In this document: piece by piece, positions 1 through 45,137 of the stretch | Position numbering within the stretch: position 1 is the first letter of the stretch | How the letters are laid out: the number at the start of each line of letters is the position of its first letter | Assembly (NCBI GenBank): GCA_964019415.1 | Contig: OZ025888.1 | Coordinates: forward strand, 4,531,036-4,595,035 | Origin: Ianthella basta | Lineage: Eukaryota; Porifera; Demospongiae; Verongiida; Ianthellidae | Direction: 5' to 3' | DNA length: 64,000 nt | Program-made: the position numbers and the translations under genes | Notes under the pieces: model-generated | The model's database searches: none | What the model was told of the DNA's origin: nothing | What the model saw: only the letters and a program-made list of their open reading frames with translations

Positions 1-23
1 CGTCACTTCATCAATTCACTCAC

Positions 24-780
24 CACAAGTCCATCCTTCCCCAGATACAACTGAAGTGGCAGACATTCCAGGCTCAGGTACTATACCTGTGCTGTAATCT
101 CCTGATGTGAGAGCCACAGACTGATCCATATAGAAGTGTACATTAAAATAGGATGACCGGTAGATGGATCGTGTTGGGCCTTGAACCACGACATTTTCCC
201 TGTCATAAGCAGTGTTGTAGACAGGGCTTGCTTCCACTTCAACACTGAAGCTAGTAGAAGATGTGAACACTGTCACATGGTTGTTTGTTGGTTGAGACCT
301 CTCAAACCAAGCATCTGGGAGGGATAAGAACGAGGCAACACAGCTGCCTGTAGCACTGTCAGTTGTGCACGAGGCCATGATTCGAGTTTGTCCTGGGTCA
401 AGTTCCATAGATGGTTGAAGAGTGATATTGAGTGTTGTTGGCTTCACAAATGGTAAGTCTCTGCTGTCAAATGCCTTGAGCAATACGTAAAGTGCCCTCC
501 AGTCATGGTACACTTTCTGCTGCAGTGGAGAGGCTTGGACAGAACTGGCAGTGTCACCAATTGTAGGGATGTTCAAGAATGGACGAAGAGGAGGCTCTTC
601 AATCATGACAGATGGCTCAACCACGTGAACTTGGCTTGAAAGAGTAAGATCACTACCAATTGGTGCTAAGAAGGGGAATCCAAAGTCATGGCTATATGAC
701 AGTTGTCCAATTCGTTGCGGGCTGCCCAGCAGCAAGGCACCTCTGTCAGAAAAGAACCTCACAAACTTCTTCTCCACAAA
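24..780 (-). other. TMEM132-like module 4 (first part only)
   Basis: The opening of a fourth module: a beta-rich domain with CVASFLSLPDAWFERSQ (compare CEVLLRLPDEWFEAD in module 1 and CWTNVELPETWFQAG in module 3), then IYRSSYFNVHFYMDQ, the start of its cohesin-like part. It stops at GEGWTC where the giant exon ends; module 3 has GEWMC at the same point. The remainder must lie in the next exon, left of the window. Confidence 0.72.
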
Positions 781-3700
781 AAGGACATTAATGGTTGCAG
801 TCTGGCTGTTTGGAGTCTGTCCCTGATCCGCTGCGAGGTAGATCAGGCTTAGAGTGTCGCCTGCCCTGCCCAATACACTCTCTGTCAAAGTAAGCTCCCC
901 ACTCATAAGATCGATGGTAAAGGGACCTTCCACCTGTCCTCTAGGTTGGCCTGCAAAGGAGTAGGTGACAACACCATTGGACCCTTCATCCTTGTCTGAT
1001 GCAGAGATAGTGGCAATCAGTGTACCAGTTGGAAGATCCTCCTCAACATACAAGTCTAGTTCAAGATTCACAAAGTTGGGTGAGTTGTCATTCGCGTCTT
1101 CCACGTACACCACCACTAGAGCAGTGTCACTCTGTGGATTAGTGCTCTGGTCCTCCACTTTGACTTGCAGTGTGTGCATAGATTGTACCTCACGATCAAT
1201 GTCTGCTATGGCAAAGAGATTGCCATCGTCGTCAAGCTCAAAGAAGGTGGTATTGCTAACGATGCTGTACAGCAACATCCCTGCTAGTCCAGCGTCTGGG
1301 TCGGTTGCATTGAGAGTGAGCACCAGGGTTCTATTGCTGCTGTAATCTGCTTCCTTGATGGTTACATTGAAAATGTCCTCCACAAAAACGGGTGGTGCTT
1401 CATTAGAGTCCAAAACAGTGATTCTAATAGTGGTAGTCGATGATTGTGGAGGAATTCCCAAGTCAGTTGCTTGGACAATGAGTTCATACACCTCAGTAGT
1501 CTCAAAATCAAGACCTGTCATGATGTAAATGGCACCAGTTGTGCTGTTGATGCCAAAGGAGTTGCCTACATTGCCACCTGCGAAGGAGAACACTGCTTCT
1601 GCATTGATCCCCACATCCTCATCTGTAGTGTTGAGACCACTTATAATGGTAGATCCCGGAGCCAAGACCTCACTGACATTAGAGATAAGTTGTGGAGGGT
1701 CTACAAACATTGGCCTGTTGTCATTTACATCACCAACTTCAACATTCACCATCTTTGTGCCAATCTCTGTTCCATCTTGGAGGGCAGTAACACCCACCAC
1801 AAACTGAGGGTTTGCTTCACGATTCAGACGCTGAGCAGAAAGAGTTCTGGTTGTTCCTGTCCCTGTGAGATAAAACAGAGGTTGGTCTTCTGTGAACGTA
1901 ATAGTCCCCGTCAGTGCTGGAAACGAAGGGTCACCAAGGGAGATAACTGCTACAGGCTGTGGACGTTGTTCCTCCAGTACACTGGCATTCACTGGAACAG
2001 CCACATAGGTGCACACGTCAGAGCGGTGAGTGTTGTCGAAAGCAGTCAGAGGGGAAATAGTGATTGCATAGTTGTCCACCACAAGTGCTTGGCTGCGATA
2101 AGAGGTAAAAGAGCCAAATGCAGTCACAGCCGGTGGAAGTGCCCTGGTGAAGAGTGCATAACGACTGTAGTGGCTTGTTCCATCTGCTCCAGTTGTAACT
2201 GCAATGATGGCCTCCAGCTGTATATCGGTAGTCTGAATTGGTGTGTAAATGGATACCTCATACATAGAGTCTGAGACAGGGACAGCCTCAAAGATGAATG
2301 TGGAGTCTCCTAACATCTCCACCAAGCGTCCTTTAGCAAATTGAGACAGCTGAAGCAGGTCTGCTATGGATGAATGAGAGATGATTACAAACACATAGGT
2401 TAGGTCCCTCAGGACAACCCCACTTTGGGTGCCGCTTTCCAGTGCCACTGAGATGGTGAGGTCACAGTTGCTATCCACTCCAACCGGGTCAATGGTGTAG
2501 CCGCCAAGGAGGGGAACCAGTCCACTACGAGCTCTGAGAGCAAACTGGACATCAATGGCATCCAGGACACCATCCCTGTTAGGGTCATTTGCACCTGAGG
2601 TAGGATCAAATATATTCAACCATAGCTGAAGTGGGTCAAGTACATTAAACAACCCATCTCCATTGTAGTCTCCAGAGGAGCTAGCCTGCCGAGCCTGCCT
2701 TGACGGTGCACTTTCGGGTCTGACATCACGTCTCCCTTGACCAGTGATGTAAACATAGTTGACTTGTGTAGATTCATCGGTGGTGAGGGACACCAAACCA
2801 TTGTCCAACAGAGCTGGGAGTTCAGCTTGAATGGAAGCTGTGCCACTAGCAATTGCAGTCAGGGAGATGGTTGCAAAGGTTAGAATACCACTGGAAGAAA
2901 CCTGTCTCCCAAGCCCTGAAATGGCCAGTTCCCCAGGTGGTGAGTTTGTGCGAACAGGAAACACACCTGGAAGTGGTACGGTGACATCGCTGACTTCAAG
3001 AAGACTTGAATTATATGAAATCAGTGCTTCAAAAGCAAGAACCACATTGCTGCCAATGTTCACTCTCAGGTCAACAGTGAAGGTTGATCCTACGCTAACG
3101 CTTGCAATGGCAAGGCCAGTGGGCTGTCCCATATCCACACCACCCACAGTGGCATCGGTTGGAAGGTTGGCTGCAAACGCAACTGTAGTGTAGACAGCAG
3201 AAGAGTGCTTAGCAGTAGCTTGCAGGTTCAGAAGTTCAGGGTAGTTCCTCAGCACTGTCATCACATTACCGGTAATGGAGACAACACCTGTTGGCATCAC
3301 GGAGAAGTCTAGAGCCTTAGCAAGACCAGAGGCGTTGGCAAACCCTACAGTTTGAGCATACTTAGTTCCATCAACAAGATTGAGATTGCCAATGATAGCA
3401 AACTGGGTGGCAGGAGAATTGAGTGAAACAAGCTCTAAGTCAATAGAAGCAATGTCAACTGTACTGTTAAAGTAGTTGAGGACTGTTAACTGAACCGAAG
3501 AATACAACCCTCCACCAAGCTGCACATCAACCTTGGTGACACCCTCCAGTCTCGGTCTGAGGAGGATCATATCAGGAAGGTCAATCATAATGACTGTATC
3601 AGTGTTGTCTGAAAGGGTCACATTTGTGTTTGCATCAGGGAAGGCACGAACGATATCTCCACCTGATAGTTCAATAGCCATTATAACAACAACTTCCTGA

Positions 3701-6700
3701 TAGAGATCTGTAGTCCCAGAAATGGGTCTGATGGTTGTCAAATTGTGGTCCTCCCCTCCTTCATAGAATGGGTACGGTCTCAGTTGGACTTGCATGGCTA
3801 TGGGAGCAGCAACCCTCAGTGACACACGGGCTGCATAGGTCACTTTGTCATATTCGTACAGTGCAGACACTTCATCCACGCCAATCCTGTCACTGCTGGA
3901 AGGTGAAGCAGATGATCCACTGAACTGGATAAGTCCAGCAGCACTATGGAACATGGCGCTGCTTGTGACATCCAACCTAGAGCCATCCTCAAGTGTCAGC
4001 CACACTTGCATGACAACAGAAGTGGGAACAGCAGACTGTGGAATACCATGACTAGGATGTGCAACAATTGTGGAGGTGAGCATGAGGACAAGGCCAGTGG
4101 CTGCTGGGTAGTTGGAAGTGACAAAGGCAAGTGCTGAAGCTGGAGAGGATGTGACACAGGCAGGTGAATACATGGTGTTGACAAGGTGCCCCATAACATT
4201 GGAGAGAAGGCTAACACCACCAGAAGTACTCACACTTGGGTCCATAGTTGACACCATGAGGCCTGAGCTGTCAGAGACCCGCATTCCTTCGCCATCACTG
4301 TAATAGATTGTGGCAATTGCATTTCCAACACTGGCTGAATCTGAGAACTCTTGTACCAAACCAAGATTGACTGACAGGCCAACAGATGTAGTGGAAACAG
4401 TGGTGGGGTAACCTTGCAGGTCAATGTCTGTAACAATTCGGGATGAAGTTGCACTCACATCAACCGGCACTGTGTCTGTTACAAACACATTGATGGTTTG
4501 TGCTCTTTCAAAGAGGTTTACAGCAACACTGCTTGAGCTACCTGGTGTCCTTCCACGCACATACACTCCATCCAGAGTGACAGCTGAGGGGTTGCTAAGC
4601 TCAAACATGGGCCTCAAAAAGTCAGTAAGATCAAGAGTTGGACTTTCCAAGGTTGTACCAGCGTTAAACCTTCCTGTAGCATACAGCCTTGCAGATTGAT
4701 AGTAGCGGGAAGTACAGCCAGAGTCACTGAACCAGCCAACAACAGACTGGAGGCTGTCATCACTGGCAGACATTCTGAAGGAGTCAGTAATTGGCTGCCA
4801 AACTCTGAACGGCAAAGAGAATGATCTGCCTTGATAGGTGATCTGAAGAGGTGTGCTTTCAGCACTGGACAAGTGCAGGTGAGTCAGAAGAACAGATGAG
4901 CAGTCCACGGAGATGGATAGAACTGAACCAGGATTGGTGCAGGCCAGAGATGTGGTGAGTGGACTTATTCTATCATCTGTGTTCTGTGACTGGTATATCC
5001 CATACACAGCTACACCAGCTGACACATTGACCCAATTCATCCTTGCAGTGTTGACCAATTCACTAGCATTGGTGTAGGCAAGGATTCCCTGCAAAGCATT
5101 CTCTGTGATGGTGACTGAACCCTCGCCTCCACTCTGAAGGCCATTCCTGTCTTTGAACAGTGCTGGGATAGAGCGACCCGCCACAAGAGAACCACGTGTG
5201 GATGACAGCATGGTGACCGAAGCTGAGACTTGGTAGACACCACTAGCAGGGGCAACTGCCCTGGCACTCAATGTGAACAGGTCCTGAGGGAACATGTACA
5301 CCTTTGGTGTATACCTTGATTGAAGTAGGCAAGCTAGCTTCAAGGTGGTAACTCCTGCTGCATCCTGCAACTCATGTCGGCACATCCACTCACCAGTATC
5401 AACAGGGGGTTGCAGCTGAATTTCATTGGACGAAGAACTCAAAGTGATCTGGAAGGTGTCCACAACAAAAGGAGCGATTGCCTGCAAGTTGATTGGAAAT
5501 TCGTCATTTTGTACAACCACAGAGCTTGGTAGAGAAACAACGATGTTGCGATCCTCGCTGTCAAAAGTCACTGGGACATCTGCGTTCAAGGTGATCTCAC
5601 GTAGCAACACTCTACTAATCTGTCTACTGATGGCATACACTCTTACTTGAGAATATCCACCTGCTTGGAACCATGTCTCTGGTAGTTCCACATTTGTCCA
5701 GCAAATTCCAGAGAATGACTGTGGAGTACACTCACTACCCTGGGTGGCTGCAGCTGCCTCCTCGCGTCCTCCTACATTCAGAGGAACAAGCTGCAGGGAC
5801 ACTTCTGAGCCACTCACTGCTACTGTGCTAAGAGAGGCATCTCGGACCTGCAATGCAGCAATTACCGTTCTCTGATCCACCCAATAGCTCTCTCTCTGTA
5901 CAATGCCAACGATGGAAGCTGCAGGTTGAAGAGGCTTTGCAAATGTGGCAGTTTGTGTCAGTCCATTGATGTTGGTAGTGATTTGTACTGGTTGGCTGAC
6001 ATCTCCGAAGAAGAGCACATCCTGTGATGCCCCGGCAAAGGTGGCATTCGCCAACAAACGTTCCTGTCCAGACAAGAGGAAACCAGGGCCAGAGATGTGG
6101 AGGTCAAAAGGAATTGTGTCCACAAACTGAACATCCACAGTCACTACACACGATTGGTCACTATTCCATGTGCTTTGTGCTCTAACACGAACAGTAGCTG
6201 AGGTCACACTGTATGAAGTAGTTGAAGTGACAAGGGAGAAGACATTTGGTCCTTCCTTCACAAGGTCAAACAAGTCTGAATCAGCCACAAATGTCATGTT
6301 CCTGTGTTGCAGAGTGGAGTCTCCATCATAAATGGCAATAGTGATTATTTTGTCTCCTAGCAGCACAGGTCGCTGCACCACAGCGGAATATCTTGCTGGA
6401 TCACATTCAGGCGGGTGCTCGTTGACAGGAAGAACACTGACTGATACCTGTGCAGAGCTGCTCATTGGTGGCACTCCTTGATCGCGAGCAATCACTGTGA
6501 AGTCTAGCTGTTTAATGATCTCATAGTCCAGTGGCTTTGAGAGGTACACGATGCCAGATGTCACATTGAAATAGTCAGTGATGAAGGGATTTCCAAACAG
6601 TTCATAAGTCACAGTGCCATTTTCTCCTGCATCAGGGTCAAACACAAGCATATTCACCACCTGTGTGCCAACATCTCCACCCTCTTCCCTCTCAACCTCA

Positions 6701-9700
6701 TAGGCAGACTGTGCAAAACGTGGAGCATTATCGTTGATATCCAAAATGGACACTCTGACCGTTATGGTGGCTGAATTGGTGGAAAACTGTCCCATGTCTG
6801 TAGCAACTATGCCTAGGTCAAGTAGGTCACCTAGAGGGCCTTCTCTGTCAAGTGCTTGCAGGGCTGTAACTTCTCCTGATGTTTCATTGATACTGAACAA
6901 GCTGTAGGCAGCTTGAGACTCAAAGGAATAGCGTATTTGTCCACCTGAACCTGGGTCACTGTCATTTGCAAACACCCTAACAAGGAAGGACTCGCCTTCC
7001 ATCTCTTCGGTCACAGACATTTCCAGCATGGGAGGATAAAATACTGGAGCGACATTGTTCACACACTCATCACTGGTAAGCACAGCAGTGAACGTAGTCA
7101 AAGGACTGAACCCCACTGGGAAGGTGCGTGCTAGAGGAGGTAGTGGAGAGGACATGATTGTTAGCTCAGCTGCCTCTGGATAGCTTGGTGGAACATCACT
7201 GCCAAAGAGCCATTGACGCCCATCGTTAGCAAGTACAATGAGTGAAACACCTACATCTGGCAGGACCAGGGCAGAACGCAGTTGCACTGCATAGACACCT
7301 GCACCAGCGTGGCTACCAAGAAGAGCCCCCATGCTCACACTTGGTGGAATCATGCCGGAGACTGGCACTTTCATTCCAAGAGTGTTTCGCACAGTAGATT
7401 GATCAAAATGCTCAGTGAAGTTAGAGCTTCCATGCATAAGGAGGAACAAGGCAGTTGTTACTGAAGTGCTGTCTGCAACTCTATTGCCTCTGAGCCACAA
7501 TTGTACACCAAGGTCAAGATAGCAACTGTCCGGAGTGACAGAAGAAACGGACACACCTGACACAAAAGGAGCTTGGTAGAAGGCTGCTTCCAGAAGGTAA
7601 TCAAAGTCTTGCTGGTCACATTTTCCATCCAAGTTGAAATCTACATTAGCACTCTCACAAGACTCAGCTGCATCCAAGATATTGAACACACAGTCACCAT
7701 TGACATCCCCCATCTCAACAGAATCTCCACAAGAACAGAGAGGGCTGTTGCATGGGCTCCGTGAAGGAGAAAACACCTGCAGGTTGGCAGTAGGGAGGAT
7801 GGTGATCTCGGCTGAAGTAGATCCTGAAGTCCCAATGATAACTCCCACTTCTGCACTACGGCTTTCAGAGACATAAGACAAGCGAACTCCTTCTCCATCA
7901 CTCAGGGCTGAGATCTCTGCTTTCATACCAGCTGGGAATGCACTGGTTGGTGATGTAGCTTTAAGCTCAACAACAGCAATTTCAGTCGCACCTGATACAA
8001 TAAGGGAGCTGCTGCTGATGCCTCCTATCAGCACTGCTCCATCAAAAGCTGTCCCTGTATGGCGGAATGTGGAACCCCGCCATCCAGATCCTGCAGTAAC
8101 AGACATCAATTCCAGTAGGTTGCTGTCATAAGCAAATGTTACTTCCCATGCACCAAAAGACTGATTTCCAGCATTGAGTCTGACTGGGAGTCGAAATGTA
8201 TCGCCAACATTTACACTGGAAATGGGAACACCAGGTACTGCACCCAGGTCCAATTCGATCACACGTGGCTCCAGGTTGACAGTAAATGGTTGAGACTGTA
8301 CCGAAGTTGGGACTCCATCATTGAAGACAGCACTGATGGTGGCAGTATCAGCCAAATTTCTCCAAATTGTTATTTCACCAGTCACGTGATTGAGTTGAAC
8401 TGCACTTTGAGCTGAAGATGACAGTATAACAAATCCAGGATAGAGGGAGCTACCACCGCCATAATAGTCACTCACCATAACACCATTACTGAGTGTAAAG
8501 TCCAAGATGGTTCGAGCCGCAACGCTTCCATACGTTCCAGCCAAGGAAGCAGTACTGATTCGAATGTTTGCTGATGTTGCTGACACACTAGTGTTTGAAA
8601 CAGTCAAGGATGCACTACCATTCAGAGGGCCCAAAGTTGCTGTGAACACAACATCACCTGCATTGTAAGCAGAAACAAAAGCGTTAACAGTGTCATTGCC
8701 AACATTTTCACTGCCCGCTTCAGCAATAGTGGGATTGGAGCTCTGGAACAGGATGGAGCTGCTATCAGTGACAGTCACAGAAGAGGTGCTTCCATCAGCA
8801 TAAACAAACACCCATTCAGCCTGCAGCTGTGCAAGCTGGTGTACTCCGGTTGAACCCACATACTGCAGTGTGGTCAAGTCAGAGGCTGATGGATAGGATG
8901 GGTATGGCTTAACTGACAGTAGGAGCATGTCAGAGCTTGTGATCACTTGAATAACAGCACTGGCAGTGGAATCTTGAAATGAGGCTGTCACGGTTACTTC
9001 AGTTGGTGGAGCAGAAGAGACTGCCTCCACACGATAGTAGTCCAATTCTCGTACAAGCCTGACTACATTTGGAGGACTGACTGCAAGGTTGGTGTTCAAA
9101 TTGGTTGTTACATCATAATCATCACCGTCAGACCCCAAACTAAGGAAGATTCGTACAGAAGCAGAAGATGAAATGTCAATGTCATAAGGAATTGAGACAT
9201 CTGACGGAGGAACAATACTAAGACTGCTCAATTCAACTCTCAGTGAAGGTGACATGAAAGTTGCTTCCATTTTCACTGGATCTTGGTATACACTTCCCCC
9301 ACAAGCTGACCACCACTGTGCAGTGAGAGGGTAGCCTTCAAACTCTCCCCAAACTGTGGCCTGTGTGCCTGACACTGCCAAGGATGCAGTATTGCTTGCA
9401 TACACTAGTCCAGTGCCGTCTGTCAATTGAGCTATGCGTCCATCTGTAAACACCACAAATGTGATCAACTCTGCTACTTGCCCAATGTAGGAGAGCGAGG
9501 CATCCAGTTGAGCTGTGAAGTCAGAACCTGGGCTCACTGCCATGTCAGTAGGACTTAGCAGGAGGTCAGAGGCCACGTAGGTCAGAAGGCCGCGAGGCAT
9601 CACAGTTGCAGAATTCACAGACACCGCTGCTGTTCCAATGATGTTCTTCGTAGGTGATCTGATGGACAGCGTTACAGATGGAGAAAGTGACAGACCCCTG

Positions 9701-21700: not shown

Positions 21701-24700
21701 ATGGTATCATTTTGGGTCACGTTGGCATCTGGAAAAATGAGTCTGAACACAGTGTTTCTATTTCCAACAATGTCATTGCCATGTGTTATAATGGGCTGGA
21801 AAAAGTTGGCTTCTGTAGTGTTTTCCTCCACTGTCAAATAGTAGATGGGGTCACTGAAAACCGGAGGATCATTGACATCCACAGTGCGTATGAATAGGCG
21901 TGTTGTAGTGCTGAAGTATGGTACTGCACTATCCACCGCTTGCACTACAAATTCGTAAGTGTCAATCTCAAGCCTAGGGGCTAGCTCCTTCACCGTGACA
22001 ACACCAGTAGCATTGTTAATTTCAAAGTAACTGTCATTTGAAGGTTGAACAGGTGTCATTGCATATGTGACTGTTCCATTCAGCCCTGCATCTGGGTCTA
22101 CTGCGACCATGGTAACAACAACATGCCCTGACATTGCATACTCAGGGACAGTCACGTTGTACTCTGTCTGGTTAAAACGAGGTGCATTGTCATTAATGTC
22201 CAGAACGTCAATGATGACTGTTACTGAGGAACTCTGTACAAGTGTGCCTTGTGAATCGGAGGCAACAATTGTTAGGTTATAGAGAGAGGACACTTCGTGA
22301 TCAATCACCTTCTTGTTGTAGATGACACCTGTGTTTCCTTGAGCAGCGAGATCAAATACACCATCAGAGTCGCCTGCAGTTATTTGGTAGCGGATAAAGT
22401 AGGCACCGTCAGGATCAGTGGCATAAACATGGCCAATGTAGAGTCTAGTACGATTAGTCTCTGTGATGTTGAAGAAGTAATTCACTTGGTCAAACAGAGG
22501 AGGGTGGTCATTGATATCCTGGACAATCACACTGACTGACACATTTGAGAAGGTCAGAAATCCATCCATACTAGCCTGAATGACAAAGGTGTACAGGCCA
22601 ATTGTTTCTTCGTCCAATACCTCTGTATTTACAATTACACCCGTTGAGCTGTTCACTACAAAAGGCACGTTGTCAGTAGCTCTCAACCTGTAGGCCACCA
22701 CTGACCCAGAATCGGCACTTGCTTTCACTTGGCCCACGTCCGTACCAATGTCTTCTCCCTCATCTACAGTGAAGGTGTACGGATCCTGCTCGAAAATGGG
22801 TGTGGTGTCAATTCTATTGCGAACAGTGACAACAACCTCGGCTGGACTAGAAGGCAGCCCTCTCCCATCCATGGCATACACAACCACCACATACGACGTC
22901 TCCATTTCGAAATTCAGCATTTCAGTTGTTGTCAAGGTGCCAGTGTTTGGGTCAATCATAAATGGAATGTTGGTACTAAACACTTTGTACTCCACTTCAG
23001 CATTCACTCCAAAATCACTATCATTGGCAAAAACCCTAAGAGTTTCGTTGGTTCCGTCAGCCAGAACTTCAGTGCCGGCAGGGCCATTTTCAAACACATA
23101 ACCATAGTAAAAGTCCTCAGCAAACATGGGAGCATTGTCATTAATATCACCAACATTAACAGTCACAGTTGCAGTACCCATACGAGTATCACTGCCCTGA
23201 TCTGTGGCCAGAATGAACAAGGTGAACACTGGGGTTTCTTCCCGATCAATGGGGCCATTAACTGTTATTACACCTGTGTTGGAGTCGATGCTGAAGGCAT
23301 TTCCAACATTCCCCACACTGTCAATGCTGTATTGCACCTGGCCTTCCTCACCAGCATCAGGGTCTGTCGCAGTCACTCTGCCTAAAACGAAGCCTTGTGG
23401 AGTGCCCTCTGTGACATTGAAGTTCACCTGGTCAGGCACAAAGGCAGGAGTGTTGTCGTTCACGTCAAGAACAGAGATATTGATGAGTGTGGTGTTACTG
23501 GCACCAGCAGAGTCAACAACAGTAACTGTCAGGAGGTAACTGCTAGTGTTTTCATAGTTGAGGCTGACCTTTGTCTGAAACACACCACTTACAGGCAAAA
23601 TCTCAAAATCATCGCTTGGAGGTACAGCGTTTGTGATGCTGTACATGAGAATGATGTTACAGTCAGGGTCTTCTGCTGTGATCTGCATTAGTGGAGTTCC
23701 AACGCTCACATTCTCAGCAACAGAGATGTGATAGATGTCCTGCCGAAAGAATGGTGGCTCATCATCAATGTCCCCAACTGTCAGTACACCCTGCTGCGAT
23801 ACAAACATTGTGCTACCAGCATGGCTGTCAGTAGCTATCACAATAAAGCTTATGGTTGAATTGCGACTGTCATCAACTGGGCACTGGAGGGTTTCCCGAT
23901 CAAGTGCATTTTGAAGATAAATCGACCCATTGTTGTAGATCCCAAGAAAGCTGCCACTGATAATCAGAGAGTAGTCAATCATGTTGTTATCTGGGTCTCC
24001 ATCTTCATCTTCTGCTATCCAGCGACCAAGTATTGTGCCAACCATTTCACCTTCCATCACAAACAGATCATTAGTCTGTACAAACCTTGGCTGGAATTCA
24101 TTTACATCAGTGACATATACACGAACTTCTGCCATATCAGTGACATTGTATATATCTGGCTCTTCAAACACCACAACAAAGAAAGTGTAAAGCTGGGAAT
24201 CCTCATGATCGAAGGAGCCATTGGTGACAGAGATATTCCCAGATGTACGATCAATGGAGAACGTTATGTTCCTTACAACCACTTCTGTCATTCGTGCATC
24301 AACACAACTTGCACTAGCACACAGGCCAAATCCAAGCATGCGAGCAAATGGGTCGAGATCCAAGGCTGTCACAGCTGGTCCTAGGACGCTGCCCACAGGC
24401 AAATTCTCAGGAACTCTATATGTGAATCGGTCACTAACAAACTCAGGAAAATGATCGTTGAGGTTAACTACCGCAATTACGATGGTCACATTGCTGGACT
24501 CAGGGGGCGTTCCCAAGTCACTAGCAATGACAGTCACAACGTGTTCCGTTTCATTTTCGTAGTTAAGCAAGGTGTTGTCTGCAAGAAATATGACACCTGA
24601 CACGGAGTCTATATCAAAGATGCCATACTGGTCAGATGCACTGTAGCGTACCACCCCATTGAGGCCTTCATCTGGATCATTAGCAATAATCGGGGAGCTG

Positions 24701-27700
24701 GAAAATGCATACCCTACTGTCTCGTTCTCAAGAATCCTGAGCTGCGGAATGGAACCTGCCACAAACATAGGTGCGTTGTCATTGAGATCCGACACTACAA
24801 CTGTGACTGTCGCAGTAGTGCTGAGCTCATCTTCCCCAGCTTCCACTTGGTCATTGATCGCCGTAACAAGAAGGGTATAGCGTGGAGTGGCTTCTCTGTC
24901 AAGGCTGGAGTTGGTGTAAAGCTCACCTGTTGAACTGTCAAGGTAGAATATGTCGGTGGAGTTGTCCAAGTAGAAACTCACCTGAAGGATTCAATTTACA
25001 GAATAGCAATTGAATAGCAATTGAATACGTATATTCACAAAACTACTTACGTACAGTTAAAGACTGCAGTCTATGGTGTACCTCACTAATGGAGAATTGT
25101 AAATCATAGATGTAGTAACATTTTGGAATGACCCACCATAAAGTGGAGCCCAGCCCCGGCCATATTCCACAATGTATTCCTATACATTTCTGTACTACAG
25201 TATGTCAGAACACATAGTATTAAGCAAAAGGTTATCTGCATGCAGTATGCGCCTCTACACAAGGTGTATGCCCAATGGAAAGGTGTAGGCATCCATTAGT
25301 CATTACATAGTAAGTACAGTGCAAACGTATGTACAGTAAGATGACTGTGACATACACTGTACGTACTACGTATAAGAACAGCAGTATGCAAAAACAGCAA
25401 CAGCCTTTCACGGTTCACGGGTATATGCTTGTTAGAAGGGGTAGTCACCTGCTTGGACATGACTCAGTAGCAAATATACCATATAATGAACTTTGAGTTT
25501 CGTTGCAACATTAATTTCACAAATTGTATGTACATGTGGCACACTACCACTTACGTACCTGGTTGTTTGGAAACTGATCACCATCAGTCGCATTCAGCTT
25601 GGCCACCAGCTGAGGTGGGCCATTCTCCTCAACAGTGAAAGTGTTTACACCCTCAAAGACAGGAAACAGGTCATTGTTGTCAGTCACAGTGATTTCGACA
25701 TATGCAGTATCACTGGCACTCCCATCAGAAACAGAGACTGTCAAGTTAAACATGGATCTGAAATGGTACAATGGTGAAAAGAACATTGAATTGTGGCACA
25801 TAATGATCCTACCAATACTGCACCATGCTAATGCTTGTAGCCAACAATGCAGCAGAGTCTCTCACTCTCACACACACACCACACACACACCAGACACACA
25901 CGGACACGCTCAAGCATTCACACATGGATATACACACAAACTCTCACCTGTCCACACTTTCAAAGTCCAGGTTGCCCTGCACTGAGATCTGCCCTGTAGA
26001 AAGGTTGATGCTGAAGGGGGCGGCTGGTGGGCTCACAATGGAGAAGGTCAGGGTACTGCCGTCCTCATCACTTGCTGACACAGTGGCAACAGGAGTGCCA
26101 TTAGAGGCGAGTTCAGGCACACTTTCAACTATTTGAGATACACAAAGAAAGGTGAATAAGTTACAAGTATAACATACATAGATGTAACTACTAGTAGTGA
26201 AGGCATTTTGAACATAAAACTAAAACATCTTGAAATAAAAACTTTAGTAGCCAGAATTCTCCTGAAATGTGAGTACTTTCAGAGTGAACATAATTAACCA
26301 CACTTTATTTACTTTTACCGACAACCGTTAGTTGTCAATCGTCTAAGTGAAGTCAGAACCTGTTTTGTGTCAGGTAGCATTTATGAGTGGAATCCAAACA
26401 AAAATATATTAAAATATGTTTTAAAATACTGCCTGACTGACACACATTCTCTTACCCCAAATGCGTTGTTCGAAGACGGGAGAGTTGTCATTGAGGTTTT
26501 CAATACGGACCACTATGTCGGAGGGTTCACTATTCAGGGAGGAGCCTGTTCCATCATCTGTTGCATACACATACAGGCTTGTGTACTGCTGTTGCTCCTC
26601 ATAGTTGAACATAACACTGAGAAAAATATAGATTATGATAAACATTAAAAACAAGCAAAAATAATGACCATCCCTACATATATAAGTACATAAATTGTGC
26701 ACTACACTTTATAATAGGAACACTAACCTGGTTGTGATGTTTGCTTCCACCATGTTGTTGCCTACGACAACAGGAGCAGAGATGTCGAACAAGTGTGAAT
26801 CGGAGCCTCCCAGCGTCACATTTCTAATGGTGCCTGACGGACCAGGGCCATCATCGTCAGTAATGGTCACAGTAACAACTAGAGTACCCACGGGACTGTT
26901 CTCAGGTACAGAGACGTTATACAAATCTTTATCAAATTCTGGCTCAAACTCATTTTCTGGAGAAAAGACAGCTATCAGGACCACAGCGGTGCCAACACGT
27001 GGGCTGGGACTTCCACTGTCAGTGGCAGTAACATTGAAGGGGTACCGTGTAACTGAGCCATTCACCTCAGGGAGAAGCTCACTTGTACGTATCAAACCAG
27101 TCTGTGGGTTAATGTCTACAAACGATGGAGCGTCATCGCCCAGCCCATATGTGATGGTTGTGTCCCTTCCATCCCTATCAGTCGCCACAACTCTGACCAG
27201 TTCTGAACCAATGGCTGTTGTAAATACTGTCTCTCTTGTGTATGTTTCCCTACTAAACACAGGAGCGAACTCATTCACGTCATCAACCAAAATGGTAATG
27301 TTAGCAACCGAGCTGAGAGGGGGAACTCCCCTATCTGTGACAGTGATGGACAGCTGATGCATCGAAGCAACCTCGTAGTTCAGAGGACTAGTCAGTGTCA
27401 GAGTGTCATTAATTATCTCAAACAGAGCTCCATCTTGCCGCAGTGATAGGTCAAAGAGTGCACTGCTTCCTGTGTCTGTGTCCCTCACTGAGATATTGAC
27501 AAGCTGGTTGGGAACAGGGCTGTCTTCCTTTACCAGAATTGAAAGAGGTAGTGGTGGGACAAACATTGGCGGATTGTCATTCACTTCTGCAACGATGATA
27601 GTGATGTTGGTCGAAACGTTTAGGCTACCAGAATCACTCACAGTCACCACAAGAGTATAATTCTCTTGCCTTGATCTTGTTAAGGTAGTGGCCACAGTAA

Positions 27701-30700
27701 GATTGCCTGACTCCATACCCAGCATAAAGTCTGAGCTTCCTTCAAACGTGAAGAACAGCTTTGCATTAGCCCCAGTGTCATCGTCCATTGCAGCAAAAAG
27801 AAACACTGTTTGCCCAATTGATGCATTCTCTGATACCTGCACCACAGCATTCAACTCACTGGTGAAATATGGGGTGTTATCATTCACATCATCTACTGTG
27901 ACTGTAACGTTAGCCGATGATGTCAGTTGGAACTGTTCAACACCATTGTCCCTCGCAACAAGAGTGACGAAGAGCATATCCTGATCTTCACGATCCAATG
28001 TTCGGTTAAGAAACAATGCTCCTACACTCTCCGATGACATATCAGTCACACTAAGGTAAAAGGAGTCGGCATCAGGTCCTTCCAGGTCCAGGACCTCAAC
28101 CACACCCTCATCCCCAGAAGACGAGTCAGAAACAGTGAAGATGAGCACGGGCTCAACAGGGAAAGATTCCTCCTCAACATTCACTGCATATGGTGCACCG
28201 ACAAACTGTGGAGCGTTCTCGTTCGCTGGAGCAACCTCAATCAGGACATAGCCCATGCCCATAAGGGTAGGGCTGCCAAGGTCACTCACAGTGACAGTGA
28301 CATTGTACACAATTGGCGAGAGTGTCCCATCGACAGTTATGTTGCCGGAAACTGCACCAATACCGAATGGTACATCATCAGGGAGAGCGAATCGGACTTC
28401 AGAATTAACAGTGCCCATTTGATCATCGTCCATGGCCTCAACCGTCAGGACAAACGTGCCTATGGTATCAGATTGGCTGATCAAGGCTGTCGCTCTGCAT
28501 AGCAGAAAGGTATAGTGAATCGGAGCAATTAGCACAGCACAATAAGTGACTGTCACAATAAATGTACAGTTTCATAATGATACTACCTTCTAACACTCCA
28601 ACACCAATATATGGTAACACACCACATATGCACACAGGTGCACACACACATGCACATGCACACACATATACAATGTACAATAAAGACCAGAATTCTCACA
28701 GACAATGTGAGCTACTGATGGTTTCTGTTACAGTACCACAGTGAAGCAGTGCACAGTGAAGCAGTTGCTTCATAAGTAAGCGCTCCAAGCAAGTTGCTGT
28801 ACTTACCCTGAGTTTGTAATGTATGGATCATTGTCATTGGCATCAGTCAGGTAGAGGACAACCTCAGCAATGTCGCTACCGTCTGCATTACTGACGGTGA
28901 CATTGAAGCGGTATTGGTCTCTTTCCTCTCTGTCCAGCTGATTCCGGTCAGCAACAATCAAGCTGGGAGTGTTAGTGGTGAAAGAGAAGATGGTTGCAAG
29001 CCGTACGCCGTCCTCCCTTGTGGCCATCTGGTCTACAGAGTAGTCTGCTATACTGGCTGTTTGGTGAGAAGAGAGAGGAGCAGTAGGGTTGAGAGCTCCA
29101 ACTCACTACATTACAGTATGCTACATGGTGTACATGCTATGGCAATGGGCTGTAAAGCGCTAATTAGGGAGGCTGCAAATAACTACAGTACATTCATGCA
29201 TTGCATTGTACACAACCCTAGTCTTGTGAAGAACTTCTGAGTGGCTAGGTTCTTGCATATCACAACAATTGGGAAGCCACACTAGCCAACAAGATAAAAC
29301 AGATTCCAAACATTTCAGTCCAATACAGGACCTTCATCAGTATAAACTTTCAGTGATAAATGTCCTGGATTGGACCAAATGTTTGGAATCTGTTTTAACT
29401 TATTGGCTAGTGTGGTTTCCCGATTGTTGTAAGAACCCCAGTCTTCAGAATGCACGTAAATATCACTTGCTCTACAGAATGCTGCAAAAATGAACCCCTG
29501 AGACATAGCTTTATGCACATACACGGTGTCAATATGGATCATGGTTGGATGATTGGAATGGACATAGGCAGCATATCTATGACCCTTGAAAGCAGCACAC
29601 ATATCAGACCCATACACACAGTACCCAAGTAGGTAGTGCCATGCATTCTAATACCATAACTCAAATCCAAAGCACTATTTGAATAGCATGAAGTGCCAAT
29701 GAAGGCAGCAGTATAATAGTTGTTATCATGAAGACCCCCACCAAAGCCCACCAGCACCTCCTTGGGAGGGGGCGGATATGTGCAGTCTAAAATTAGTAAC
29801 AACCAAATTCTCCATATAAGGTGTAAACAAACCACTATTATACTCATATTCATGGCCAGGGATCATCTTATGTAAACAGGTCTTCAATTATCTCAGTAAG
29901 GTCACATTCTGTTTGTTCAGGTCCAGCCAGTTACCCTTTTTCCCAAGAATCTGTTTGCCTACCAGATTTGAACAATTTTGAAGATCAGAAATACAGGTTC
30001 CTGTGTTCTTTCAATCATGATACTTAATGAAAGGCTTGTGGTCAACTTACCAGTGATGCAGATAAGTTCAAAACCAGCTACATATTAATATTTAGTAACC
30101 ACAAAGGCTCTAAGCACAGACTACTGACAGCTAGTAGCACCATAATTATCAAAACATGCTTGCAAATGGAATATTACATGTATGTGTCACTGATGTTACC
30201 CAGAGGAAGTCAAAACCTGAAGCACTGAGGTTCCACTCCATTTAGTATATCCCTTAGCTGTACTGACACATGTACAGGTAGCACGTACATAAAGCTCTAA
30301 ACTTTTGAAAATGCTGTAAACTATATCAATGGCAATTAAATCATCCTTGAAGATGAATAACGGTTACTAGAACTTACATGTGCTGAGGGTGACACCCAGG
30401 CGTCCAATGAGGTAGGCATCTTGAGCATCCTCAGGTACAGTGAAGTTGTAGAGATCCAGGTCAAAAGTTGGTGGTTGCAACATTGGAGGCACTCTTATTG
30501 TGACAGCTGCACTTTCAAAAGTGTCAGTTGAGTTCCCCAAGTTGATCTGCAAAATGAAGATACGATGCCAGCAAGCACAGTCAAACAGACTGTCACACCT
30601 AATCACACAGTGCACAGCATAACCCATCACTCTTAGTAGTGCATAGGTCCATACGAATTCTAAAGAATTCCACCTATGTAATAAATGCTTATGGTCCCAG

Positions 30701-31971
30701 CCGAAACAAAATGAAGAGGATTCAAAATTCCAATGCATCTAGGATGCTGTGCACTTCTGGATGCCAGAGCACAAGGCAATGCCCATGACATGAACAACTC
30801 ACGGTAATGAACATGTTAAAATCCGGTTGATAATCGACAACCACAGGAGCAACAGTCAGCTCGCCATTCAGAGTGAGAGTGATAAACCGTTCTGGGTTAG
30901 GCTCATCCACAACAGTGGCAACGATAACTGTAAAATTGTGCACATGAGGCAGAGAACAACACAACCTCTTGGACTTGTGCTATGTACCATAGCAGAGCTG
31001 ATGTAACTTACGACTGCACCATTATAGCCTTCCATTCATTCACAACCTTACCAGCTAGCCCAGTTGGCTGTGCTACCAGCCTAAACATCTAGTGTGCTGT
31101 GAGACATGCATGCAGTACTCACCAGTTGCAACTCTGAATTCCACCGGTGTTCCAGCCAAGTCCCCAGTGACCTACAAGAAAGTAGACAAGCATCTAATGT
31201 CCTGCTGCATCTACGTAGCACCCATGCAGCATGCATCAGACACAGGTGTGGTGTTGCATGCCACAAAGAACACCAGCCCATGAACAAAGTGAGACAAGTA
31301 GAGTAAGAGGCAACCATGAACACAGTGTCAGATGGGCAATTTGACAGGACAATCAGTCAGAACACGCGAATAACAAGAACCTGTCTTACCATTTATACAA
31401 AGATTACAGTTATAACTGCTGTAACTGGATTGACCGGTTCTAACAGTGGCATAAGCTGTCAAAACGACACACAGTGCTGCATGCAATACACAGTACATGG
31501 CAAAACACTACACAGACACAGCCAGCTAATAAAACAATCCATAATTCACTACCAGGTGGAGCAGCAACTACCCACAGCATACACTTCAGCTTGTACAGCC
31601 CTGGCAAGTAGCAAATACGTATGGTGTAGCCTAACTACTCAGTGGCCGAATGCAAATGTACATGTACAGTACATCTCCTTCACAGGGGGATATACAGGTA
31701 GTTATTATTCATCAATGAGTGATACTCACCGTGAGCTGTCTGGTAACGGTCACGTCTCTGCTAGCATCGATCTGGAAGGGTGTTATACCTGGGTGGAGGA
31801 CAAGGTGGAATGGTAGACAGGCTACTCAACGGTATGCATGGCATAGGGTGTGCTTTAATCTGTGAAGGATGATTGGATAGGCGGGGCCGACTTACCTCCG
31901 CGCGAGACGCCGAGTAGGGTGAGCAAGAAAAGCAGCGCAAATAAGGCTGTTTTCCGCCTAGGCACCTTCAT
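24..31971 (-). CDS. Giant coherin-like cadherin with TMEM132-like, cohesin and dockerin modules (N-terminal 9331 aa, 3' end beyond window)
   Basis: Eleven exons: 31971-31896, 31788-31730, 31171-31123, 30927-30803, 30546-30378, 29056-28807, 28494-26728, 26616-26456, 26128-25948, 25757-25559, 24981-24. All introns are GT-AG and every junction keeps frame (27,994 nt in total). The ATG begins a signal peptide (MKVPRRKTALFALLFLLTLL). About 46 cadherin repeats can be counted from DxNDNxP-type linkers: about 10 in exons 4-10, then blocks of about 22, 7, 3 and 4 in the last exon. Between the blocks lie four TMEM132-like modules, three of them followed by cohesin, dockerin and an extra domain. The TGA just after position 24 is intronic: the exon ends TTGTG/gtgagt inside the fourth module, so the tail, membrane anchor and cytoplasmic part are missing here. 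Role inferred: calcium-dependent cell adhesion or matrix scaffolding. The coherin assignment rests on EC plus cohesin co-occurrence. Confidence 0.92.
780..2010 (-). other. Cadherin EC-repeat block 4 (about 4 repeats)
   Basis: Four cadherin repeats with linkers VGDVNDNRPMF, VLDSNEAPPVF and VEDANDNSPNF. The last repeat runs into VLFVEKKFVRFFSDRGALL, the start of module 4. Confidence 0.88.
2010..2514 (-). other. Post-dockerin domain, copy 3 (uncharacterised)
   Basis: From TIDPVGVDSNCDLTISVALES to RSDVCTYVAVPV. It keeps the opening DxxxC, a central SMYEVSIYT (compare GVYTVMT and GVYAVQL), the ISPLTAF stretch and the final cysteine just before the next cadherin repeat. Confidence 0.58.
2515..2685 (-). 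other. Dockerin domain 3
   Basis: Two intact calcium loops, DYNGDGLFNVLD and DPNRDGVLDAID, separated by LQLWLNIFDPTSGAN and followed by VQFALRARSGLVPLLGG. All coordinating positions are filled, and the loops read like textbook bacterial dockerin loops. Confidence 0.88.
2745..3155 (-). other. Cohesin domain 3
   Basis: About 135 residues with ASVSVGSTFTVDLRVNIG, then AFEALISYNSSLLEVSDV, ELAISGLGRQVSSSGI and LTFATISLTAIASG. It has the same strand order as cohesins 1 and 2. A basic linker (PSRQARQASSSGD) joins it to the third dockerin and contains a minimal R-x-x-R site. Confidence 0.74.
3160..6120 (-). other. TMEM132-like module 3 within the giant cadherin
   Basis: Third copy of the module. 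It has a beta-rich opening ending in CWTNVELPETWFQAGG (about 5700), a cohesin-like strand VQNDEFPINLQAIAPF, the NTARMNW segment (about 5040), VLSISVDCSSVLL, and then Ig-like sandwiches. It is more diverged than module 2: the LLNTAVLxG signature is reduced to LVNTARMNW. Confidence 0.7.
6125..7060 (-). other. Cadherin EC-repeat block 3 (about 3 repeats)
   Basis: Three cadherin repeats with linkers ILDINDNAPRF and VLPVNEHPPEC. The third repeat lacks a normal calcium linker and leads directly into TMEM132-like module 3 (VDTIPFDLHISGPGF). Confidence 0.88.
7060..7574 (-). other. Post-dockerin domain, copy 2 (uncharacterised)
   Basis: About 170 residues from SVSSVTPDSCYLDLGVQLWL to TSDECVNNVAPVF. 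It matches copy 1 in length, in the opening TPxSC/SPEC segment, in a central GAGVYAVQL (GNGVYTVMT in copy 1), in an FxPxxxF stretch and in the closing ECVN before the next cadherin repeat. Confidence 0.6.
7575..7735 (-). other. Dockerin domain 2
   Basis: Two intact calcium loops, DVNGDCVFNILD and DFNLDGKCDQQD, only about 20 residues apart, the second followed by FDYLLEAAFYQAPFV. Preceded by a short Cys-rich linker (SPCNSPLCSCGDS). This is the most compact and canonical of the three dockerins. Confidence 0.88.
7840..8265 (-). other. Cohesin domain 2
   Basis: About 140 residues; the best cohesin match in the window. It has SSVNVGDTFRLPVRLNAG, then GAWEVTFAYDSNLLELMSV, a loop with GSGW, then VLIGGISSSSLIVSGATE and IAVVELKATSP. 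Order and spacing follow the nine-strand jelly roll of bacterial cohesins (VKVPV strand, F.YDP..LE, FLF..T.....I..DG..A.I.FKV). Confidence 0.78.
8290..11240 (-). other. TMEM132-like module 2 within the giant cadherin
   Basis: Same order as module 1. The clearest TMEM132 landmark of the window is here: SLLNTAVLNGQRV (about 10,200), then FKVSDSCEEVYLTGDEDSGA, then AVWYPDLPLTVSPGDSELN and a cysteine about 20 residues further on. This is the same succession as the conserved central region of vertebrate TMEM132 proteins. The preceding cohesin-like part starts at NLFPGESAYLTIYAKVES (about 10,640). Ig-like sandwiches follow up to the second cohesin at about 8265. Confidence 0.78.
11245..13570 (-). 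other. Cadherin EC-repeat block 2 (about 7 repeats)
   Basis: Seven cadherin repeats with linkers DRNDNPPVP, GINDNPPMF, EENDNAPVF, NINDMEPEF, DVNDNPPAF and DENMYAPQF. The last two repeats share features (ENMYAP linker, a CSN/CLSN insertion) with the last repeats of EC block 1 (HDVNMYTPMF, CFND). This suggests that the whole unit of terminal ECs plus TMEM132-like module was duplicated together. Confidence 0.9.
13570..14078 (-). other. Post-dockerin domain, copy 1 (uncharacterised)
   Basis: About 170 residues between dockerin 1 and the next cadherin block, opening with PxSANSPECRTTITITLGS and ending at the cysteine in PYPSTECVNLYPPVW. Comparable segments of the same length, position and bounding cysteines follow dockerins 2 and 3, so this is a real repeated unit. 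Predicted all-beta from the alternation of hydrophobic residues. I recognise no known family. Confidence 0.6.
14079..14280 (-). other. Dockerin domain 1
   Basis: Two 12-residue EF-hand-like calcium loops, DATGDCIFDTAD and DADRNGYRDLRD, lie about 45 residues apart, each followed by a short helix (ALYARLVL; VALLERASFDL). Positions 1, 3, 5 and 12 carry oxygen-bearing residues in both loops, as type I dockerins require. The longer than usual gap between the loops holds SPSVLQNLTANQLLAL. Confidence 0.85.
14430..14845 (-). other. Cohesin domain 1 (C-terminal to TMEM132-like module 1)
   Basis: About 140 residues with the cohesin pattern: a hydrophobic opening strand, EIPIYLNVAGV, then VTLYYNPQALQLLSV, a variable loop, GGVASQGYEGIARF, then LGTVTLLVLKPG. 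In bacterial cohesins the equivalent elements are a VxVPV-type strand, the F-x-YDPxxLEV strand and an IAxIxFKV strand. It lies immediately N-terminal of a dockerin on the same chain. Confidence 0.7.
14845..17990 (-). other. TMEM132-like module 1 within the giant cadherin
   Basis: This follows EC block 1 and contains the landmarks of a TMEM132 ectodomain in order. They are a beta-rich N-terminal domain with a cysteine pair ending in VLLRLPDEWF (about 17,590-17,550), a cohesin-like strand pattern after YTGEEFSINFSVSW (about 17,390), and the LVNTPKLTG segment (about 16,940). Next comes a Cys-rich stretch with ILKIEPDCSEAYLSGNE and then WFPMMTAIRF. Vertebrate TMEM132 has the corresponding LLNTAVLTGR, VIKVSD.CDYVFVNGKE and VWVPRLPLQIE elements. 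Ig/BIG-like beta sandwiches follow to about 14,850. The similarity is recognised from memory of the family and needs a profile search. Confidence 0.75.
18000..24981 (-). other. Cadherin EC-repeat block 1 of the giant exon (about 22 repeats)
   Basis: About 2330 residues of tandem cadherin repeats of roughly 105 residues each. Most carry DRE in the middle and end in a linker such as DLNDNAPMF, DINDNAPRF or DVNDNPPAF, which are the calcium-binding LDRE and DxNDNAP motifs. Several linkers are degraded (RNRIDTTPIF, PLNVNGPSF, DAVDSPPRF), which suggests flexible calcium-free joints, as seen in other long cadherins. The block continues the repeats of exons 4-10. Confidence 0.93.
26729..28493 (-). 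other. Exon 7 of the giant cadherin: six EC repeats in a single 1767-nt exon
   Basis: The second largest exon of the gene (28494-26728). It reads through cadherin linkers APANENAPQF, DDVNDNTPYF, AEVNDNPPMF, DDVNEFAPVF and SPENEFEPEF. Other N-terminal exons are 49-250 nt. It is bounded by tatgcag/AGCG and CCAG/gttagt, phase 2 at both ends. Confidence 0.85.
29057..30377. other. Cadherin intron 5, 1.3 kb
   Basis: Non-coding. It contains a 190-bp foldback element (29248-29437, listed separately). The rest, 29,440-30,377, is AT-rich unique-looking sequence in which I see no exon or conserved element. Confidence 0.6.
29248..29437. mobile_element. Foldback (MITE-like) element in cadherin intron 5
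   Basis: Two arms of about 80 bp are near-perfect inverted repeats: 29248-29332 begins GGTTCTTGCATATCACAACA and 29356-29437 ends TTGTTGTAAGAACC, with an inner core of AACAGATTCCAAACATTT. The central loop holds a TTTCAG...CTTCATCAG segment. It has no coding capacity and fits a non-autonomous DNA element. Confidence 0.75.
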
Positions 31972-34009: not shown

Positions 34010-34137
34010 AATATAAGGCACGCGCGCGTGACGTTGACACGTGCATGATGACGTTACCAAAACACCTGATCACAAACACCAGTCCGAAATAAATTAAACA
34101 GAATGCTGTGACAAGATTGAATTGTGTCCACAGTAGA
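34010..34137 (-). promoter_or_regulatory. 128-bp gap between CDK8 stop and GH5-like start: CRE/E-box cluster
   Basis: Within 26 bp lie two TGACGT CRE half-sites (34029-34034 and 34049-34054) with a CACGTG E-box between them (34038-34043), inside a CG-rich patch just upstream of the GH5-like ATG. This is the likely promoter of the GH5-like gene. No AATAAA is seen for CDK8 on the minus strand. Confidence 0.45.

Positions 34138-40091: not shown

Positions 40092-45137
<5,046 letters not shown>

Follow-up and report, generated by a model that had tools for sequence, protein, structure and literature searches.

Gene structure and domain organization

The stretch analyzed here, 64,000 nucleotides of the sponge Ianthella basta (GenBank assembly GCA_964019415.1, contig OZ025888.1, positions 4,531,036 to 4,595,035; hereafter the window), carries on its minus strand a gene for a giant cadherin in which cadherin repeats alternate with blocks resembling the ectodomain of TMEM132. 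The bulk of its coding sequence is a stop-free single frame of 8,324 residues (24990..16). The 5' part (31971..25559) comprises about eight smaller exons rather than one frame; GT-AG introns can connect these upstream exons to a signal-peptide ATG at 31971, and the reading phase is consistent from there through the donor at 23, with the junction 26455/26129 as the weak point of the 5' exon model. Summing the exons picked by hand gives ~9,295 coding residues within the window. The original prediction, made from the sequence letters, of a continuous frame of more than 9300 residues was thus nearly exact in its total and in both coordinates but not in its continuity. The gene continues left of the window (flank L002), where more cadherin and TMEM132-like exons, a hydrophobic segment and a tail exon can be read; the tail exon ends ~5,970 bases beyond base 1 of the window. 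The hydrophobic segment, VFPLWAIVLIVIIVIAALLACLIVLCACCWRR followed by CCWRR, was recognized by eye in a predicted exon.

The Pfam cadherin model PF00028 identifies 25 self-standing stretches in one half of the 8,324-residue frame and 9 in the other, a further six in the exon frame 28571-26709, and one in each of two exons downstream. Set between these cadherin arrays are three complete blocks, of ~1,480, ~1,390 and ~1,370 residues, which share a common order: an N region, a cohesin-like domain, the domains BIG1-3, two more immunoglobulin-like (Ig-like) stretches, a cohesin, a dockerin and a post-dockerin domain. For the inner TMEM132 domains we use the names given by Pfam and by Sanchez-Pulido and Ponting (2017, PMC6030884), while the two extra Ig-like stretches are our own reading of the alignment. 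A fourth block begins in the window and extends beyond its left edge. There BIG3 seems, by eye, to lead straight into a cadherin repeat, so that block 4 apparently lacks both cohesin and dockerin. Its assignment draws on domain order, conservation and two matches below cut-off, PF23481 (Table 1) and, in a downstream exon, PF23487 (E 0.045).

The TMEM132 resemblance is clearest for PF16070, which scores above its cut-off in blocks 1, 2 and 3. The remaining TMEM132 models stay below theirs: in the scan of the 8,324-residue frame PF23481 and PF23486 matched below cut-off, and PF23039 and PF23487 gave no match. A profile of the TMEM132 part matched two of 8,000 scored proteins: one is TMEM132C from the fish Alosa (E 3.8e-26), the other comes from the green alga Cymbomonas (E 2.7e-20). 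The alignment with Alosa TMEM132C spans residues 134-802, its second to sixth Pfam domains, and the TMEM132 order of N region, cohesin-like domain and BIG1-3 recurs in the window gene. The cohesin-like domain itself returned 19 weak matches among PDB profiles, mostly internalin- or leucine-rich-repeat-based and none significant (best E 0.026), and a weak profile match to canonical cohesins (hhalign probability 11.2, E 0.0027); since these matches are weak, its identity as a cohesin is taken from PMC6030884 and from the Pfam name of PF23039.

The canonical cohesins that follow, of the cellulosome type, are identified by PF00963, by PDB profiles and, for block 2, by structure comparison, which gives a cohesin fold. 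In block 2 the PF00963 score reaches 36.5 and 36.8 bits against a cut-off of 24.1, and in block 3 it falls on either side of that cut-off depending on the piece scanned (Table 1). The block 1 cohesin has no PF00963 match even at E 5 and is placed by alignment. Searched genome-wide, PF00963 exceeds its cut-off at two places, both in the window gene, a search that recovers 2 of at least 6 cohesins.

In bacteria, cohesin and dockerin together form a molecular clamp. Candidate dockerin loops were sought with the pattern D.[DNST].[DN]...[DNST]..[DE], drawn up from general dockerin rules after the sequence had been seen. It matches seven times in 8,324 residues, and six of the seven form three pairs, one directly behind each cohesin. 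Three such pairs arose in none of 2,000 trials of global residue shuffling and in none of 2,000 trials of shuffling in blocks of 100 (mean loops 0.84 and 0.87, respectively). A profile built from four dockerins, three from the window gene and one from a further Ianthella gene described below (gene C), finds annotated PDB dockerins from E 1.2e-5; its top match is a bacterial protease chain (E 1.9e-6), which we take to contain a dockerin-like repeat, and EF-hand proteins follow from E 2.7e-4. The post-dockerin domain behind each pair has no convincing sequence match in the PDB (one at E 0.92).

The one giant relative recovered is P0004, a protein of other origin that aligns collinearly with residues 3593-8324 over 4,727 residues at 72.7% identity; no named sponge or choanoflagellate coherin was among the matches. 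Cohesins are 71.6 and 81.6% identical between the two proteins, dockerins 76.6 to 80.7%, and other domains 63.5 to 80.2%, a comparison that leaves out linkers (38.9 and 85.7%). The calcium-ligand positions 1, 3, 5 and 12 are kept in all five dockerin loops that P0004 covers, and position 9 in four of the five, the other changing from N to D. The precomputed Pfam list for P0004 also names PF28399 and PF28393, which our scans did not return and which might cover the cassette's unnamed domains. This collinearity argues against an assembly join for residues 3593-8324, and to judge from the sequences this part of the gene is real and no artefact. That the frame should be bacterial contamination, or several genes joined in assembly, is hardly credible given that relative, the introns that can be modeled, a eukaryotic CCDC81-domain neighbor, and the location on a 6.5-Mb contig of a 209-Mb eukaryotic genome.

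The domain content was largely foreseen by the original prediction. Its reading of the protein as a coherin holds, cadherin repeats and cohesins being joined in one polypeptide; the TMEM132-type ectodomains are recognized by PF16070 in blocks 1-3, and the cohesins by Pfam, PDB profiles and structure comparison, with block 1 assigned by alignment. Of the four TMEM132-like modules said to alternate with cadherin repeats, the fourth is less well matched, and the cohesin and dockerin parts occur in three blocks and apparently not in the fourth. The "bacterial-style" dockerins stand as far as three loop pairs lie behind cohesins and are kept between species; the Pfam dockerin model PF00404, discussed below, stays under its cut-off. 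An assembly join was one of the outcomes named in advance that would overturn the claim, and P0004 speaks against it for the residues given above.

Table 1. Features of the giant cadherin gene in the window (coordinates in the window; all on the minus strand)
Feature	Coordinates	Strand	Basis or remark
Exon 1 with the ATG start codon and the signal peptide MKVPRRKTALFALLFLLTLLGVSRG	31896..31971	-	signal peptide by eye; donor at 31895
5' exons, about seven in the model, N-terminal cadherin repeats; including an exon inside the 620-residue frame 28571-26709	25559..30927	-	
Giant exon, ~8,320 codons	24..24981	-	acceptor 24982, donor 23
Cadherin repeats ahead of block 1	17992..24981	-	PF00028
Block 1 TMEM132-like ectodomain with two additional Ig-like stretches	14851..17991	-	PF16070 63.6 bits; profile match to TMEM132C
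Block 1 cohesin	14305..14829	-	alignment only; no Pfam hit
Block 1 dockerin, loops DATGDCIFDTAD and DADRNGYRDLRD	14071..14283	-	loop pattern
Block 1 post-dockerin domain	13555..14070	-	alignment
Cadherin repeats, blocks 1 to 2	11236..13551	-	PF00028
Block 2 TMEM132-like ectodomain with two additional Ig-like stretches	8266..11235	-	PF16070 58.1 bits
Block 2 cohesin	7756..8259	-	
Block 2 dockerin, loops DVNGDCVFNILD and DFNLDGKCDQQD	7582..7722	-	loop pattern; conserved in P0004
Block 2 post-dockerin domain	7063..7581	-	alignment
Cadherin repeats, blocks 2 to 3	6124..7062	-	PF00028
Block 3 TMEM132-like ectodomain with two additional Ig-like stretches	3181..6123	-	PF16070 39.6 bits
Block 3 cohesin	2695..3177	-	PF00963 26.0, 24.0, 22.1 bits by piece scanned
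Block 3 dockerin, loops DYNGDGLFNVLD and DPNRDGVLDAID	2512..2685	-	loop pattern; conserved in P0004
Block 3 post-dockerin domain	2011..2511	-	alignment
Cadherin repeats, blocks 3 to 4	775..2007	-	PF00028
Opening part of block 4 (conserved N region, beginning of the cohesin-like domain)	25..774	-	PF23481 E 0.062, below cut-off; conserved in P0004

The cassette in other genes and genomes

When the TMEM132-cohesin-dockerin cassette of block 2 was compared with the whole 209-Mb genome (E <= 10, 8 candidates scored), all seven matches fell in three genes: the window gene (gene A) and two others, B and C. Gene B lies ~1.7 Mb away on the same contig (C21:6248809-6275889) and has a frame of 9,027 residues. 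It contains 24 cadherin stretches in the 3,333 residues scanned, two cassettes, the second confirmed by profile (probability 99.15), and a tyrosine phosphatase domain (PF00102, E 4.2e-29); a membrane-type segment was recognized by eye. On the strength of this combination we call it lefftyrin-like. Its fibronectin type III-like stretches are our own reading, and its 499-residue exon matched no Pfam family at E 0.1. Phosphatases carry the motif HCx5R, which in gene B reads HCANGMGKT, so the domain may be inactive. Gene C lies on another contig (C20:4775829-4786004) and has a frame of 3,392 residues, with one cassette, a stretch rich in serine and threonine and, again by eye, a membrane-type segment. 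PF16070 is present and Pfam found no cadherin in the 2,668 residues scanned; gene C may be the TMEM132 counterpart of the Ianthella genome.

The cassettes share 20.6-21.3% identity within gene A, 24.2% within gene B, and 18.7-24.0% between genes, whereas the two orthologous pairs of gene A and P0004 share 72.3 and 75.5%. Identity within a gene is therefore about as low as between genes, which suggests that each cassette position has long been kept distinct. A cassette tree resolves only the two orthologous pairs and does not reject a clade of the gene A cassettes (approximately unbiased test, p-AU 0.318), so the age of the repeats is read from the identities.

Beyond this genome, a search that scored 8,000 candidates, with lengths between 0.55 and 1.75 times that of the query, gave no relative of the cohesin-dockerin-post-dockerin unit at E <= 0.01. 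One pattern for the cassette matched 420 stretches in GTDB genome contigs, none of which tblastn upheld, and viral contigs gave no relative. At that sensitivity no bacterial source of the cassette came to light, which leaves room for one. The green-alga protein recovered above (P0006, Cymbomonas tetramitiformis) combines TMEM132-like domains with one good dockerin loop, with contamination a possible explanation. Its dockerin match lies below cut-off (E 0.019, 15.6 bits), and the profile aligns the first loop only (20 columns, probability 85); Pfam finds no cohesin in it at E 1, and a post-dockerin domain is without support.

The tail exon and neighboring genes

The tail exon (L002:4029-4616, minus strand) matched no Pfam family at E 0.1. 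It contains the motifs NPLY and NPVF, 14 residues apart, where adaptor binding is possible; in spacing they resemble the NPxY pair found in integrin beta tails. A search of the whole genome for the catenin-binding cadherin tail PF01049 gave no match, and the controls of the same search were equally silent. Immediately upstream of the window gene lies a gene with a glycosyl hydrolase family 5 (cellulase-type) domain (32198-34069, minus strand; PF00150, E 3e-14). The CCDC81-like gene lies at 40246-41631 on the plus strand (PF14908 and PF18289). The downstream neighbors, in the left flank, look by eye like an endo-alpha-mannosidase and a POLQ/HELQ-type helicase.

A possible adhesion clamp and its alternatives

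We propose to read the product of the window gene as a coherin-type adhesion receptor, a giant single-pass protein of ~10,000 residues (its exons beyond the left window edge being partly modeled) in which pairing of cohesins with dockerins plays a part, and we give this reading a probability of roughly 0.6. For cohesin-dockerin pairing of some kind, judged from sequence, the odds appear about even. The adhesion role is inferred from knowledge of the family and from PMC6030884, which likewise inferred it. In the proposed receptor, calcium-stiffened cadherin rods would space three TMEM132-cohesin-dockerin cassettes and a shorter fourth TMEM132 block, and a cytoplasmic tail would connect the molecule to the cell interior. 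The dockerins would clamp cohesins in a calcium-dependent manner, either in cis, as a latch within the cassette that could open under pull, or in trans, between molecules on neighboring cells and perhaps with the products of genes B and C. A cis latch is sterically thinkable because the cohesin-dockerin linker spans some tens of residues; given three cassettes in each molecule, so, equally, is a trans zipper.

Several observations weigh against this proposal, and most concern the dockerins. PF00404 never reaches its cut-off in the window gene (best 14.2 vs 22.9 bits), and searched genome-wide at E <= 10 it lists five places, none of which is a window-gene dockerin. All five look by eye like EF-hand proteins, two of them calmodulins, and one calmodulin-like EF-hand frame even surpasses the cut-off at 23.3 bits. 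As PF00404 thus matches EF-hand proteins, the loop pattern by itself cannot separate a dockerin from an EF-hand, and it is therefore the position behind each cohesin that carries the dockerin argument. Moreover, the structure model has low confidence in the dockerin (residues 158-209 with a predicted local distance difference test score, pLDDT, <50; mean of the whole 53.9).

In a possible but less probable explanation, cohesins and dockerins are structural relics that have ceased to bind one another and serve as beta-sandwich and calcium-binding spacers that would keep the ectodomain rigid, with any adhesion left to the cadherin or BIG domains. The cohesins have indeed drifted far, that of block 1 being invisible to Pfam; vertebrate TMEM132 keeps a divergent cohesin with no detectable dockerin (PMC6030884); and against P0004 the cohesins and dockerins are conserved little above the other domains. 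Against this reading, both halves are kept together in all six complete cassettes of the three genes, at mutual identities of 18.7-24.2%, and ligand positions 1, 3, 5 and 12 are preserved in the five comparable loops. If the clamps do work, their partners may lie in different proteins: the window-gene dockerins might bind cohesins of gene B or C, making a three-protein adhesion set. This special case of the receptor proposal is unlikely on present data. It would suit the confinement of all block 2 cassette matches to three genes, and PF00963 matches the window gene only; that model, however, misses so many cohesins that further ones may exist elsewhere in the genome, and specificity is not readable from relatedness, as the gene A cassettes differ from one another as much as from those of B and C.

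A broader, rather doubtful conjecture sees in the TMEM132 ectodomain the half that survives of an ancient, self-contained adhesion cassette, the other half being a calcium-dependent cohesin-dockerin clamp placed behind the Ig domains. Sponge-grade animals would have set such clamps along cadherin rods as force-bearing latches between cells, and vertebrate TMEM132 would have lost the clamp. The TMEM132 family is dated to the animal-choanoflagellate lineage (PMC6030884); the TMEM132-like domains and dockerin loop of P0006 hint at a cassette older than that. Whether TMEM132 cohesins bind anything strongly was left open in PMC6030884, partly for want of a vertebrate dockerin. In the window gene each of the three cohesins is followed by its own putative dockerin partner, so the question becomes testable with single domains. 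If binding occurs, animal cell adhesion would have adopted a mechanically very strong bacterial clamp, and the TMEM132 family, which is linked to disease, would descend from, or alongside, a clamp-bearing protein.

Comparison with known systems

Coherins, which are cadherins that contain a cohesin domain, are described from choanoflagellates and sponges (Nichols 2012, via PMC6030884 and PMC8164589), and their cohesins have been viewed as derived from bacteria (PMC8164589). The TMEM132 architecture is already reported as repeated in choanoflagellate and sponge cadherins, including coherins, and dockerins as undetectable in vertebrates (PMC6030884). We found no description of dockerins in animal cadherins in the open literature searched, nor in the available passages of PMC6030884; its supplement and Nichols 2012 lay outside that search. 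The novelty claimed by the original prediction thus falls for TMEM132 domains in coherins and holds, within that literature, for the dockerins. A dockerin behind each cohesin, repeated, and recurring in two further genes, is new as far as the open literature shows, and an earlier description is possible.

The window gene shares with coherins the union of cadherin repeats and cohesin in one protein and TMEM132 domains in the same order (PMC6030884). Compared with the coherins as presented in PMC6030884 and PMC8164589, it has in addition a dockerin and a post-dockerin domain after each canonical cohesin, three times. With the TMEM132 family it shares five ectodomain domains that align in order with fish TMEM132C. 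It departs from that family in its cadherins and several block copies, in the two Ig-like stretches, cohesin, dockerin and post-dockerin domain that blocks 1-3 add, and in a tail exon without a TMEM132_C match (Pfam, E 0.1). Gene B approaches the lefftyrins, which like coherins are reported from sponges and choanoflagellates, with its cadherins, cassettes, membrane-type segment and tyrosine phosphatase, whereas the window gene has a tail exon in which Pfam, at the same threshold, finds no phosphatase. Cohesin-dockerin pairs of bacterial cellulosomes, such as 4dh2, offer the closest parallel for the clamp itself, with the cohesin fold and paired 12-residue calcium loops in common and both halves of 4dh2 matched by our profiles. 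Unlike those pairs, the window gene has no enzyme part or scaffoldin, and instead joins both halves in one animal-type polypeptide together with cadherins.
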